The notes under the pieces: model-generated
The model's database searches: none
Told to the model about the DNA's origin: nothing
Seen by the model: the letters and a program-made list of their open reading frames with translations, nothing else
In this document: positions 6,333-61,275 of the stretch, piece by piece
Numbering within the stretch: position 1 is the first letter of the stretch
Layout: the number at the start of each line of letters is the position of its first letter
Origin: Azotobacter vinelandii CA
GTDB taxonomy: Bacteria; Pseudomonadota; Gammaproteobacteria; Pseudomonadales; Pseudomonadaceae
NCBI RefSeq assembly: GCF_000380335.1
Contig: NC_021149.1
Span: 682,001 to 746,000 of the forward strand
Direction: 5' to 3'
DNA: 64,000 bases
Position numbers and translations under genes: made by a program

Positions 6333-8162
<1,830 letters not shown>

Positions 8163-56285: not shown

Positions 56286-57581
56286 TCATGCGCCGAACCA
56301 GCCGAGCTTGACCACGAACAGCGCGGCGAGGATCAGCAGCGCCGGGTTCAGTTCGTGGCGGCGGCCGGTGCAGAGCTTGATCGCGCTCCAGGCGATGAAA
56401 CCGAAGGCGATGCCGTTGGCGATCGAATAGGTCAGCGGCATGGCCAGGGCGGTGACCAGTGCCGGCGCGGCGCTGGTCAGGTCGCTCCAGTCGAGTTCGC
56501 CGAGGGCGGAAACCATCAGTACGGCGACGAACAGCAGCGCCGGCGCGGTGGCGAAGGGCGGAATGCTGGCGGCCAGCGGGGCGAAGAACAGGCTGAGCAG
56601 GAACAGCAGGGCGACGGTGCAGGCGGTCAGCCCGGTGCGTCCGCCGGCGCTCACCCCGGCGGCGGACTCGATGTAGCTGGTGGTGGTCGAGGTGCCGAGC
56701 AGGGCGCCGCCCATGGCCGCGGCGCTGTCGGCGATGAGCGCGCGGCCCATCTTCGGCAGGCGACCGTCCGCGGTCATCAGCCCGGCGCGGCGGGCCACGG
56801 CGATCAGGGTGCCGGAATTGTCGAACACGTCGACGAAGAGGAAGGCGAAGACCACGCTGACCAGGCCGATCTCCAGGGCGCCGGCGATGTCCAGTTGCAG
56901 CAGGGTCGGCGCCAGCGACGGCGGCGGCGCCAGTACCCCGGCGAAGGGGATGACGTCGAGGCCGACGGCGGCCAGGGTCACGGCGAGGATGCCGAGCAGC
57001 ACCGCGCCGGGCACCCGGCGCGCCTCCAGGGCGACGATCAGCAGAAAACCCAGCGCGGCGAGGATCGGCGGGGCCTGGGTCAGGTCGCCGAGGGTCAGCA
57101 GGGTCACCGGATGGCCTTCGACGATGCCGGCGTTCTGCAGGGCGATCAGCGCGAGGAACAGACCGATGCCGGCGCCGATGGCCAGACGCAGCGGGAGCGG
57201 AATGCTGTCGACGATCCACTGGCGGATGCGCAGCACCGAGATCAGGAAGAACAGGCAGGCGGAGAGGAACACCGCGCCGAGCCCCACTTGCCAGCTGTGG
57301 CCCATCTGCAGCACCACGCCGTAGGTGAAGAAGGCGTTGAGGCCCATGCCGGGGGCCAGGGCGATCGGGTAGTTGGCGATCAGCCCCATCAGCGCCGAGC
57401 CGATGGCCGCGGCCAGGGCGGTGGCAACGAACACCGCGCCCTTGTCCATGCCCGTCTCGCCGAGGATGCCCGGATTGACGAAGAGGATGTAGGCCATGGT
57501 CAGGAAGGTGGTCAGGCCGGCCAGCAGTTCGGTGCGCACCGTGGTGCCATGGGCTTCGAGTCGGAACAGCTTCTTCAGCAT
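56286..57581 (-). CDS. NCS2 family purine permease (AzgA/GhxP-like)
   Basis: 431 residues with about 12-14 hydrophobic helices. [18 protein letters not shown], the [13 protein letters not shown] motif and GMGLNAFF are hallmarks of the AzgA-like branch that imports adenine or guanine/hypoxanthine with protons; [14 protein letters not shown] is the conserved helix 10 region. Start at the ATG at 57581 with GGAGA about 7 nt upstream. The specific purine cannot be assigned. Confidence 0.88.
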
Positions 57582-57796
57582 GCGGATCTCCGTCGGTGCC
57601 CCGGCTCGGGGAAAGGCCGGGCAGGGCGCGCCACGCCGCGCGAAAGGGCTGCGGATGATAGCAGCTCGGCGTAACCGGGAAAATTTGCCGGGCGCACGGC
57701 TGTGAAGGTTCGACGGATTGCTCGCCGGGATATCGAGGCCGCCGAAGGCCTGTTCGGCTGCTTCGATCATCCCGCCGCTCGACCGCTCGCGCGAGC

Positions 57797-57864
57797 CGGC
57801 GCGCTGCGGAAACCGCCGCTACCTCTGTGGAGTTCGTCGCCCTGGCTCGAGGAGAAAACCGATG
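57797..57864 (+). pseudogene. phnG: phnG C-terminal remnant
   Basis: About 22 codons reading RRAAETAATSVEFVALARGEN, which matches the end of PhnG (usually AATRVEFFTLVRGE), a subunit of the C-P lyase core complex. It ends at the start of the phnH remnant, as in intact operons. All upstream sequence of the gene is missing. Confidence 0.55.
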
Positions 57865-58153
57865 GGCGATGCCCTCTACCTGCAACCGGCCTTCGACCGG
57901 CCGGCAGACTTTCCGCGCGGCGCCCAAGGCGCTCGCCGAGCCGGGTCTGGCGCAGCCGCTGCCGCCGACCCCGGCGCTCGAGCGGCTGGCGCCGGCCACC
58001 TATGCGCTGTGCCTGAGCCTGCCCGACGCCAGCGCCCCGGTGTGGCTGGCGCCGGCCTTCGACATTCCGAGGGTGCGCGCCAAGCTGAGCTTTCACTGTG
58101 GCTGCCCGCCGGTGGCCGTCCATGGGCGGGCCGCCTTCGCCATGCTCGACGCC
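57862..58153 (+). pseudogene. phnH: phnH remnant (C-P lyase subunit), frameshifted and truncated
   Basis: Starts ATG GGC GAT with a good ribosome binding site (GGAGAAAACC). The first 17 codons (MGDALYLQPAFDRPADF) and the following part (FRAAPKALAEPGLAQPLPP, then ALERLAPATYALCLSLPDA, VWLAPAFDIP, LSFHCGCP) lie in different frames, so a single-base shift has occurred near 57908. The sequence is then joined at about codon 95 to a phnK fragment, with the rest of phnH, all of phnI and phnJ lost. Confidence 0.75.
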
Positions 58154-58432
58154 GTCGGCCTCGACGATCTGCCGGGCACCTTCTCCGGTGGCATGCAGCA
58201 GCGCCTGCAGATCGTCCGCAACCCGATTTCCGGCCATCATGGACGAGCCTGTCGGTCCGGGCGCGGTTGCTCGACCTGCCGCGCGAGCGTGGTGATCGTC
58301 ATTCACGACCCTTCCGTCGCACGCCTGCTGGCCGATCGGTTGATGGTGATGTGTCGCTCGCGGGTGGTGGAAACCGGGCTGACCGACCGGGTGCTGGATG
58401 ATCCGCAGTATGCCTACACGCGGCTGCAGCCA
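58154..58432 (+). pseudogene. phnK: phnK remnant (C-P lyase ABC-type protein)
   Basis: Contains the ABC signature LPGTFSGGMQQRLQI, then, in shifted frames, the Walker B IMDEP and SVRARLLDLPRE, and finally VVIVIHDPSVARLLADRL, VVETGLTDRVLDDPQYAYTRL. These are the C-terminal features of PhnK, the NTPase-fold partner of the core complex. The Walker A half is absent and at least two frameshifts are present. Confidence 0.78.
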
Positions 58433-58612
58433 TGGGCGGCTTCTGTCTGCCGCTGGTCCTGCGCAAAAAGCTTCGCCAGCAAGCCGGCTCCGGCAGGGGC
58501 TTGGCATGGGCCGCCAACACGGCGTCATTTCCATTCGGTGTTGGCGCGAGGGGGACGCCGAGTCCTTGCTTGCGAACCGGTTTGCATCCGGGGCGAACGG
58601 CCCTCTCCCCAA

Positions 58613-58743
58613 CCCTCTCCCGGGGGGAGAGGGGGCGGGTTGGTGCAGCGCCGAAGCCCAGGCGTCACGCGAGGCGCCGCTGCGGTCGTTCGTCCAATCT
58701 CCCAGTCCCGCTCGTTCCAACCCCCTCTCCCTGCGGGAGAGGG
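58613..58743. repeat. pair of identical REP-like hairpins CCCTCTCCC-n3-GGGAGAGGG
   Basis: Two hairpins with the same 9-bp arms at 58613-58633 and 58723-58743, in a non-coding stretch (about 58440-58800) between the phnK and phnM remnants. This resembles intergenic repeats of the REP/BIME type. Insertion of the element may have accompanied loss of phnL and the first part of phnM. Confidence 0.6.
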
Positions 58744-58802
58744 CTGGAGTGAGGGGCCAACCCACGCCTGGCCTTCACCTCTTCCTTTCGCCGGGGCAGC
58801 GC

Positions 58803-59406
58803 CGGTTCGCCCAGGAAGACCGGTACCGCGAGTACTATGGGCAAGTACCAGCTCGATGCTGGGCAGATGGCTGTCTTCAGCCGCCGGCAGAAAGCCAATT
58901 CGCTGGCATACAGCGACCGCCAGCGGCGCGCCATCGTCGAGGAGGCCGGGCGCGCGGGCTGTCGATCGCCAGCCTCGACGACACGACCTTCGAGCACGTC
59001 GCCGAGTCGGCCGGCTTCGGCATGTCCATCGCCGGGTTCCCGACCAGCCTCGCGGCTGCGCAGGCCAGCCACCGCGCCGGACTCGAGGTGCCGATGGGGC
59101 GCCGAACCTGGTCCGCGACGGCTCGCACTCGGGTAATATCGCCGCGGCCGAACTGGCGCGTCAGGGCGTACTCGACATTCTCTCCAGCGACTATTATCCG
59201 GCGAGCCTGCTGCCGGCCGGGCAGGAAAACGACTACGACCTGCCGCGGGCGGTGGCCACCGTCACCCGCGGCCGGCGGTGGCCGCCGGGCTGGCGGATCG
59301 CGGCGAACCGCAGGTCGGCCTGCGCGTCGATCTGCTGCAGGCGCGGGTGGTCGGTGCGCAGGCGGCGGTGCGGCAAGTCTGGCGAAAAGGGGAACGGGTG
59401 TTCTGA
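58803..59406 (+). pseudogene. phnM: phnM remnant (C-terminal half), several frameshifts
   Basis: Successive pieces in changing frames match PhnM, the ribose-1-methylphosphonate triphosphate hydrolase: AQEDRYREYYGQVPARC, RQRRAIVEEAGR, ARGLSIASLDDTTFEHVAES, then GAPNLVRDGSHSGNIAAAEL, ARQGVLDILSSDYYPASLL, DYDLPRAVATVTRG, and AAGLADRGEPQVGLRVDLL to WRKGERVF before a TGA. At least three shifts. The N-terminal metal-binding half is missing. The stop overlaps the phnN ATG (TGATG), keeping the original operon junction. Confidence 0.8.
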
Positions 59407-59957
59407 TGGGCGGACGGCTGATTTATCTGATGGGCGCCTCGGGCTCCGGCAAGGACAGTCTGCTGGAGGCCGTGCGCGAGCGTGTGCTGGCGGCTGGCGG
59501 GCGGATCGTCCGGCGGGTCGTCACCCGCTCGCCGGAAGCGGTCGGCGAAGACGCGCTCGGCGTTTCGCCGGAGCGCTTCGAGCAACTGCTGGCCGAGGGC
59601 GCCTTCGCCCTGCACTGGCGGGCCAACGGGCTGGCCTACGGCATTCCGCGGCAGATCGACGACTGGCTGGTCGATGGTCGCGACGTGCTGATCAACGGCT
59701 CGCGCGGCCACCTGGCCGCGGCGCGGCGGCGCTACCCGGAGCTCTGTGCGGTGCTGCTGACGGTCGAGCCGCAGGTGCTGCGCCAGCGCCTGCTGGCGCG
59801 CGGCCGCGAGACGATCGAAGAGATCGAGGCCCGGCTGGCGCGCAACGCGCGGTTGCCGCTGGACGGCGAGGACTGCCAGCGGCTGGATAACTCGGCCAGC
59901 CTGGCGCAGACCGCCGAGGCCCTGCTGCGGCTGATCCGGAAGCGCGCATGCGCCTGA
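59406..59957 (+). CDS. phnN: ribose 1,5-bisphosphate phosphokinase
   Basis: 183 residues, apparently intact. It makes PRPP from ribose 1,5-bisphosphate, the last step that recycles the sugar of C-P lyase. P-loop GASGSGKDS at 10-18; the rest follows guanylate-kinase-like PhnN (TRSPEAVGEDALGVSPERF, LHWRANGLAYGIP, DVLINGSRGHL). Both neighbours are pseudogenes, so it has either survived by chance or kept a use of its own in ribose bisphosphate salvage. No clear promoter upstream. Confidence 0.88.
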   Translation: MGGRLIYLMGASGSGKDSLLEAVRERVLAAGGRIVRRVVTRSPEAVGEDALGVSPERFEQLLAEGAFALHWRANGLAYGIPRQIDDWLVDGRDVLINGSRGHLAAARRRYPELCAVLLTVEPQVLRQRLLARGRETIEEIEARLARNARLPLDGEDCQRLDNSASLAQTAEALLRLIRKRACA

Positions 59958-60265
59958 CCCTGCTCGGCAGCGGCAATACCCGCCAGGTGCCGGTATACGG
60001 CTGCGAGTGCGTCGCTTGCGAGCGGGCGCGGCGGGAGCCGGTCCCGACACGCTCGGACTCGCCGAGGCCGGTGTCGCGCCGCCGCTCGACCTGTTGGTGC
60101 CGGACTGCTCGGAGCCGCCGCAGCCGGAGCCGTGCAATCACAACGACCTGCCGCGGGCACTGGCGGTCGTCGCGCGGCTGCGCCCGGCCGAGACGGTGCC
60201 GACCCACATCGGCCATAACCTCGACGCCTGGCTGATGGAGCATCCGGCGGCGTTGCCGGCGGGGG
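59948..60265 (+). pseudogene. phnP: phnP remnant with internal deletion
   Basis: Begins MRLTLLGSGNTRQVPVYGC with the Cys pair of PhnP, the cyclic phosphate phosphodiesterase of the metallo-beta-lactamase fold, overlapping the phnN end by 10 bases. After about 35 codons the frame shifts and the sequence jumps to the C-terminus: DTLGLAEAG, LLVPDCSEPPQPEPCNHNDL, TVPTHIGHNLDAWLMEHP. The middle, including the HxHxDH metal site, is deleted. Not functional. Confidence 0.8.
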
Positions 60266-60395
60266 ACGGGCGCTGTGGGCGCGCGCGGCCTGACCCCGCT
60301 GCTGCGCTTGGGCATGACCGGTTTCGCCCTGTCCGCCGCGCGGCTGCCGGACTTCCGGGCGCTCTGGGGACTGCCCTATACCGAGGTCGGATGGA

Positions 60396-60588
60396 TCGGC
60401 GGCGGCTTCTTTCTCGGTTGCGTGGCGACGGTGACCGACCTGGCCGGCCTGGAAGAGCTTCAATGCGAGTTCGGCGCGTTGGGGGACGAGTTGGCCAAGG
60501 TGATCGGCTACGACATCGAGTTCCAGCCGGTGACGAATCGGAGCGCAGTGCTCTAAGCGCTGCGCTTCGCCATCTAGCGCTTCCGGGC
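60396..60588 (+). pseudogene. probable fragment of a PhnD-like phosphonate-binding protein
   Basis: The frame ending at 60556 reads ATVTDLAGLEELQCEFGAL, GDELAKVIGYDIEFQPVTNR, SAVL, stop, then ALRFAI. This pattern (aromatic, lobe, DDLAKxxGxxVxFxxVTDYxAVxxALRF) is that of the N-terminal lobe of PhnD/PtxB-type substrate-binding proteins. It is truncated by stops and by the following peroxiredoxin gene. It fits the neighbouring phn relics, but the match is short. Confidence 0.45.
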
Positions 60589-61152
60589 GGCGAGCCATGC
60601 GATGACGCGCTCCGCATCGCTGTCGGCAGGATAGACGGGGTAGAACACTTTCTTGATCCGCCCGGCGCGGGCGATCAGCGTGAGCCGCCTGATCAGCACC
60701 TGCCCGGCCACCGTGAAGGTGGGAAGTCGCAAGGCTTCGGCGAAGGCGAGCCGGGCGTCGCTCAACAGTCGAAACGGCAGGTGCAGTCGCTCGACGGCCT
60801 CTCGCTGGTACTCCGTATCCTGCGCGCTCAGGCCGTAGACCGATGCACCCAGGGCGTGGAGCTGCGCGTGGTGATCGCGGTAGGCGCAGGACTGGGGCGT
60901 ACAGCCGCGGGCACCGGGTAGCGCATTCCATGCCGGCGTGCCACCGAGCGGTTCCTGATCGGGTTTCCCTGTCCGTGGATAGCAATAGACGACGACCCAG
61001 GGCGTTCCTGCCCCGGAAAGGTCCACGCTTTCTCCGGAGGTCGCCGGCAAGGCGATCGTGGGTAGCCGCGTACCGGGGAGGTGGTCGCAGGCTCCATCGT
61101 CCCGTGGAACGGGCAGATCATCGGGAAGGGCGTGAAGGTTGTCCGAGCGCAT
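60574..61152 (-). CDS. PrxQ/BCP-type peroxiredoxin
   Basis: 192 residues with a thioredoxin-like AhpC/TSA fold. The peroxidatic Cys84 is in ARGCTPQSC and the resolving Cys89 five residues later, the BCP/PrxQ arrangement. The usual catalytic segment is modified by an insertion after YCYPRTG (residues 57-62), making the protein longer than typical BCP. No signal peptide. Reduces peroxides with thioredoxin. Its 3' end overlaps the PhnD-like relic on the other strand. Confidence 0.82.
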   Translation of the reverse strand: MRSDNLHALPDDLPVPRDDGACDHLPGTRLPTIALPATSGESVDLSGAGTPWVVVYCYPRTGKPDQEPLGGTPAWNALPGARGCTPQSCAYRDHHAQLHALGASVYGLSAQDTEYQREAVERLHLPFRLLSDARLAFAEALRLPTFTVAGQVLIRRLTLIARAGRIKKVFYPVYPADSDAERVIAWLAARKR

Positions 61153-61275
61153 GGTTACCGGCTCCTTTGGCCATTGGGGACTCGAGCAGTCTCCCAGGGA
61201 CTGCGGTCCGTTGCATCAGGGTGGCGTCTTTGCACGGCTCGCGATCGGGGCAGGGGCTTCTTTCGGCCGGAGGCG

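Follow-up and report, generated by a model that had tools for sequence, protein, structure and literature searches.

A decayed, apparently captured C–P lyase operon in Azotobacter vinelandii whose sole intact gene, phnN, has probably replaced a resident copy

How does one gene come to stand open in the ruins of an operon? The question is raised by a stretch of 64,000 nucleotides from the chromosome of Azotobacter vinelandii CA (contig NC_021149.1, positions 682,001 to 746,000), hereafter the window. Between its positions 57803 and 60568 (2,766 bp) lie broken pieces of a phn operon, the gene cluster for the carbon–phosphorus (C–P) lyase of phosphonate use, arranged around an intact phnN. The same site is free of phn genes in three congeners, and a different phnN elsewhere on this chromosome is broken. 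We read these observations, with a probability of about 0.72, as the wreck of a C–P lyase operon that was captured from a donor resembling Stutzerimonas azotifigens and whose only intact gene, phnN, replaced the now-truncated resident phnN.

As a reference we used the locus of S. azotifigens DSM 17556 (L033), a species that supplies the closest PhnN relatives beyond the window's own cluster (86%). It carries phnC-D-E-F-G-H-I-J-K-L-M-N-P, followed by a second set, phnD2-C2-E2-M2, and the counterpart of the window segment spans 7,626 bp there. An earlier note, made from the letters of the window alone, had described operon pieces in their original order, and blastn and tblastn against this locus bear it out: the pieces are collinear on the + strand, with DNA identities of 82–93% piece by piece when gap columns are disregarded. 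The coding blocks match with blastn E-values of 5e-35 to 0 and two spacer blocks with 3e-31 and 4e-17, far beyond chance; an unbroken block of the 3′ part of phnM, the whole of phnN and the start of phnP aligns at 88.1% over 1,274 columns. Three deletions separate the blocks, namely one from the 3′ part of phnH to the 5′ part of phnK that includes phnI and phnJ, one from phnL to the 5′ part of phnM, and one of 384 bp in phnP. The stop/start overlaps are preserved, as the note had also stated, with the phnM TGA lying over the phnN ATG (59404–59408) and the phnP ATG at 59948 within phnN.

The remnant thus shares gene order, strand and overlaps with the operon phnCDEFGHIJKLMNP (the E. coli order, and that of S. 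azotifigens), but lacks phnC–F, phnI, phnJ and phnL. In the alignment to L033 phnG, phnH, phnK, phnM and phnP are all broken and, of the recognised pieces, phnN alone is intact, again in agreement with the note. With several collinear pieces carrying disabling changes relative to an intact relative, this is a decayed (pseudogenised) operon. Of the phnG-H-I-J core with PhnJ that marks a functional one, phnH is truncated, like phnK, and phnI and phnJ are missing; it cannot encode a C–P lyase. No PhnJ match was found across the whole one-contig 5.37-Mb genome, which speaks against a second C–P lyase elsewhere.

What became of the phnN that Azotobacter would be expected to carry? The comparison set within the genus comprises four genomes, that of the window and three congeners (G017, G033 and G044). 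The three congeners possess a different, free-standing PhnN, 51–53% identical to that of the window, with XdhC and MobA-like transferase genes on one side and universal-stress and chaperonin genes on the other (each identified by Pfam in one congener). These copies are intact and constrained, with pairwise ratios of nonsynonymous to synonymous divergence (dN/dS) of 0.14–0.25. The syntenic gene of A. vinelandii CA, at about G000:C1:2635440-2635693 (L161) on the minus strand, has lost 360 bp, comprising the start and about 104 codons, with 6 bases left at the scar. It is further frameshifted by gaps totalling 4 bases, and its 73 comparable codons show a dN/dS of about 0.8–0.9 on the branch of the window's genome. 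Hence, the resident ortholog that is intact in all three congeners is lost here. When the captured PhnN was searched against the entire genome with E up to 1e-15, no second full-length copy came up; a 27% match at 268022–268456 is presumably a guanylate kinase.

Replacement of a resident ortholog by a foreign one is known as xenologous gene displacement. Here likewise a foreign phnN, by its position in the PhnN tree and its synonymous divergence, is intact and the resident phnN is dead. The difference is that the displacer came within a catabolic operon that collapsed round it, and that both the wreck and the dead resident are still visible. In the course of events that we propose, a C–P lyase operon would have been transferred from an S. 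azotifigens-like donor into the Azotobacter lineage. The cell would profit from one ribose 1,5-bisphosphokinase, which forms phosphoribosyl pyrophosphate (PRPP) from ribose 1,5-bisphosphate, even without a C–P lyase, and the incoming phnN would have rendered the resident one dispensable. The remaining phn genes, then unselected, would have decayed through larger deletions and small insertions and deletions (indels).

This account supposes that the captured phnN (59406–59957, + strand, 183 residues) is under selection. Relative to L033 it shows 86% amino acid and 89.3% DNA identity without a single indel in 552 bp. Its neighbours have accumulated 16 indels in 1,485 aligned bp (two in phnH, five in phnK, five in phnM and four in phnP; the phnD2 piece, whose 140 bp are free of indels, is not counted). 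One of the five in phnK and one of the four in phnP fall at block junctions. Under an even spread, the chance of an indel-free phnN is P = 0.006, or 0.012 with the junction pair dropped (14 indels); if indels within 50 bp are merged into 8 or 9 events, it rises to 0.06–0.08. In the dead pieces, dN/dS is 0.42–0.45 on the window branch and 0.09–0.10 on that of an intact relative, a roughly fourfold rise; in phnN the values are 0.28–0.42 and 0.23–0.25, a 1.2- to 1.7-fold rise. Thus, the indel contrast favours selection on the foreign copy while the dN/dS contrast is not significant, and together they are a suggestive, not decisive, sign of it.

The encoded protein has also kept its family features. 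It scores 218.7 bits against the equivalog model TIGR02322 (cut-off 156; residues 3–179) and retains 61 of 62 conserved columns, a conserved column being one that is the same in at least 90% of the 62 other rows of the alignment. The sole exception, V39, is a valine in L033 as well. A search of solved structures returned only guanylate kinases (20 sequences). By its equivalog score and conserved columns, the protein is predicted to be a PRPP-forming ribose 1,5-bisphosphokinase like the product of E. coli phnN; it differs from the known PhnN in that its gene stands alone amid an operon wreck.

The alternative that survives best, and which we consider unlikely, is that the whole captured operon is decaying, that phnN is open by luck and unused, and that the resident phnN died independently when it was no longer needed. 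Several points weigh against our reading, and the first three of them speak for this alternative. First, per-branch dN/dS, a ratio from which the earlier note had proposed to estimate the age of the pieces, does not separate phnN from the dead pieces on the window branch (0.12 and 0.49 of bootstraps at or below zero). Second, a scan of 57500–60700 for sigma-70-like promoters found none, and hence no promoter-like site upstream of phnN. Third, PhnN is not universally needed: at E up to 1e-15 and with at most 17 candidates per genome, it was not seen in 86 of 198 Pseudomonadaceae genomes sampled from a larger group. Furthermore, a PRPP synthase match in the genome exceeds the cut-off, the tree and the spacer discussed below point to different closest donors (L034 and L033, respectively), and the sequence of arrival, death of the resident phnN and decay of the operon is undated. 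Against an opening by luck stand the lack of indels in phnN beside 14–16 nearby, at the modest P of 0.06–0.08 once clustered indels are merged, and the retained conserved residues with an equivalog score well over the cut-off. A near-identical open PhnN (P0001, 182 of 183 residues) also stands against it, from a cluster whose longest contig (5,617,899 bases) differs from the window's chromosome.

The second alternative concerns the origin of the segment. The earlier note had seen here the loss of an ancestral Azotobacter trait, and an operon could indeed have stood at this site before Azotobacter and Stutzerimonas diverged and been lost to varying degrees among Azotobacter species. The genes are ordered as in the operon of the relatives, and PhnJ occurs in 34 of the 198 family genomes. 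This origin is nonetheless highly improbable. The site lies between a xanthine/uracil-type permease gene (56286–57581, minus strand; PF00860, E = 6.1e-53) and a peroxiredoxin-like gene (60574–61152, minus strand; PF08534), and by synteny it is without phn genes in all three congeners. In G033 these flanks join with 7 bases between them (window 57695 to 60574; L085), and in G017 and G044 the sequence passes from the permease flank to 61273–61275, directly or across 34 bases, the peroxiredoxin gene being missing as well. Neither PhnJ nor PhnH has a match in any of the three. A DNA search across the four genomes, with 40 of about 480 candidates evaluated per genome, yielded outside the window copy the flanks, short repeats and free-standing phnN genes. 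It also gave three short weak matches (43–69 bases), which lie inside phnN or span its end; tblastn detects no PhnN in the locus round the one that falls in the genome of the window.

The divergence of the gene points the same way. Measured against two S. azotifigens strains, phnN has a synonymous divergence (dS) of 0.23 and 0.32, and against S. nosocomialis one of 0.27. Fourteen comparable window genes, for which dS this high gives rough values, range from 0.35 to 0.93 to S. azotifigens 115A1 and from 0.36 to 0.75 to S. nosocomialis, all 14 above phnN. A PhnN tree of 63 rows nests the window copy among the S. azotifigens-type copies: it groups with L033, L034 and L035 (99/98), has L034 as its sister (93/92) and lies a long way from the clade of free-standing Azotobacter copies (98/95). 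The repeat-rich spacer that follows phnK is common to the window and L033, with no match in L034 and L035, where the spacers are short. The genes that flank the remnant in the window are not matched in the 20.5-kb phn loci of the three Stutzerimonas genomes. Capture is favoured because of the empty site in the congeners, the low dS of phnN, the PhnN tree, the common spacer repeats and the common phnD2 downstream; judged from these sequence comparisons, the segment is most likely a captured operon in decay rather than a lost old Azotobacter trait. The note's further description of the loss as recent holds in a relative sense only: the window branch has a dS of about 0.16–0.19, of which a third to two fifths was apparently neutral. 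Among plasmid records, 166 distant matches to the remnant were found, none spanning more than 80% of it, and the spacer alone had none. That the breaks are assembly or sequencing errors in an operon that is really intact is hardly credible, given deletions of several kb, substitutions throughout and the lack of any PhnJ match in a one-contig genome.

Piece by piece, the remnant (all coding pieces on the + strand) starts with a phnG 3′ tail (57803–57861). The earlier note had counted phnG among the pieces; it is present, albeit as no more than this short tail, and where L033 has a phnG stop overlapping the start of phnH, the stop is altered here, as the alignment and the junction letters show. 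Together with the 5′ part of phnH (57862–58177) it forms a block, 57803–58177, that matches L033 4220–4608 at 82.5% (blastn). The phnH part has frame-breaking deletions of 4 and 10 bases and has lost its C-terminal half (tblastn 73% over residues 10–104 of 194; PF05845, E = 1.3e-16, profile positions 11–96 of 188). The C-terminal part of phnK (58160–58427), upstream of which phnI, phnJ and the phnK 5′ part are deleted, bears deletions of 11, 17, 12 and 11 bases and matches at 58% over residues 144–249 of 257 by tblastn (DNA identity 74% with gaps counted, 88% without). The spacer (58458–58756), resembling repetitive extragenic palindromic (REP) elements, is homologous to the phnK–phnL spacer of S. 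azotifigens DSM 17556, with 80% identity over 147 bp (7933–8079) and 72% over 148 bp (7763–7910) in swapped order; phnL is deleted downstream of it. Window 58595–58760 holds REP-like hairpins of the GGGGAGAGGG type, short matching copies of which occur elsewhere in the genome, several near G000:C1:2014100-2014800.

The C-terminal part of phnM (58788–59405; 89.5% DNA identity to L033) lacks the N-terminal 165 residues and carries five indels, one of 15 bases and four that break the frame. Beyond phnN, the N-terminal 31 codons of phnP (59948–60041; 94% over residues 1–31), from which the following 384 bases are deleted, precede a C-terminal phnP piece with frame-breaking indels (60044–60263; 77% over residues 162–238 of 248). 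The last piece (60429–60568) had been called phnD. It matches phnD2, which in S. azotifigens lies downstream of phnP and encodes a second substrate-binding protein (74% over 46 residues, 9–54 of 273; DNA 82% over 140 bp, L033 11706–11845), and not the first PhnD of phnCDE. Two stretches, 57697–57802 and 60264–60428, have no convincing counterpart in the S. azotifigens locus.

Outside the remnant, phnD2-, phnC2- and phnE2-like transporter genes lie at G000:C1:1736354-1738812 (L146 3355–5813), 58–70% identical to those of S. azotifigens in stop-free matches; no phnM2 match was found alongside. The phosphonate-binding domain gave 25 matches, the top-scoring of which passes a putative selenate transporter model. 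A phosphonatase (TIGR01422) gave four weak matches, none above cut-off; further phosphonate routes were not searched for. As to the neighbourhood, the gap between the permease and TonB receptor genes varies in content across the genus, the peroxiredoxin-like gene being found in G033 and not in G017 or G044.

Is phnN, then, a gene with a life outside the operon? Among the 198 family genomes, PhnN was detected in 112, PhnJ in 34 and PhnH in 37. All 34 PhnJ genomes have PhnN, at most 6 kb away in 33 and on a separate contig in G185, whereas PhnJ is missing from 78 of the 112 genomes with PhnN. In other Azotobacter and Pseudomonadaceae, too, free-standing phnN genes are kept without PhnJ, but the Azotobacter resident phnN is a separate lineage from the window phnN at a separate locus. 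Exactly one PhnN is present in 111 of the 112 genomes. The single genome with both an operon and a free-standing phnN, G149 (L201, L202), possibly represents operon arrival before displacement. Operon and free-standing copies are intermixed in the PhnN tree, with eight context changes by parsimony over the labelled rows. Around 16 free-standing phnN genes, in loci of about 20 kb (dropping ABC (ATP-binding cassette)-type and binding-protein matches below 45% identity), phnH is a neighbour in two and no other phn gene is found in 14. All this fits an independently useful gene swapped into and out of phn operons, though a pattern of this kind does not amount to a test.

Beyond the window's genome, PhnH without PhnJ is confined to G174 and G197, with phnH adjoining phnN in both; L212 9817–11016 (G197) and L205 4936–6187 (G174) are partial C–P lyase relics that retained phnN. 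A second, divergent pair of PhnH and PhnJ lies at G147:C18:40374-42744; contig C7 of that genome carries a phn operon as well, and only one PhnN was found in the genome.

The product of E. coli phnN was reportedly identified as ribose 1,5-bisphosphokinase by Hove-Jensen and colleagues in 2003, and a cited paper by its title ascribes to PhnN a dual role that includes synthesis of nicotinamide adenine dinucleotide. Given the PRPP synthase match, A. vinelandii probably does not depend on PhnN alone for PRPP, and the role of PhnN is more likely the salvage of ribose 1,5-bisphosphate than bulk PRPP supply, as far as gene content can tell. In the C–P lyase route, according to a passage of one source, PhnN converts ribose 1,5-bisphosphate to PRPP in the final part (PMC10574752). 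Part of another places a bug27 gene next to nadC and phnN in Variovorax and Jezberella (PMC11452294). For Azotobacter, the passages covered of a study on A. chroococcum speak of a phosphonate transporter but of no phn gene (PMC9945222), and those of one on A. vinelandii, found by other terms, contain nothing on phn (PMC4022178). Among open-licence literature on Azotobacter phn or phosphonate and pseudogenes, no title or abstract opening concerns such a remnant or displacement, which is weak evidence of novelty.

Decayed operons and the replacement of genes by foreign versions are each known, but in our judgement the intermediate step is seldom visible; here one chromosome displays a ruined captured operon, its intact gene and the broken resident counterpart. 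Tentatively, and at somewhat less than even odds, we suggest that in Pseudomonadaceae phnN leads an independent existence as a single-copy gene while C–P lyase operons are gained and lost, such that the phnN of an arriving operon may evict the resident one and outlive its operon as the new resident. If this were true, the window would be an eviction cycle caught halfway, with both the operon wreck and the corpse of the evicted gene still readable. The finding opens to testing the role of ribose 1,5-bisphosphokinase in bacteria without a C–P lyase, which make up 78 of the 112 genomes with PhnN in this sample of the family, and it means that the annotation "phosphonate metabolism protein PhnN" does not equate to phosphonate use.

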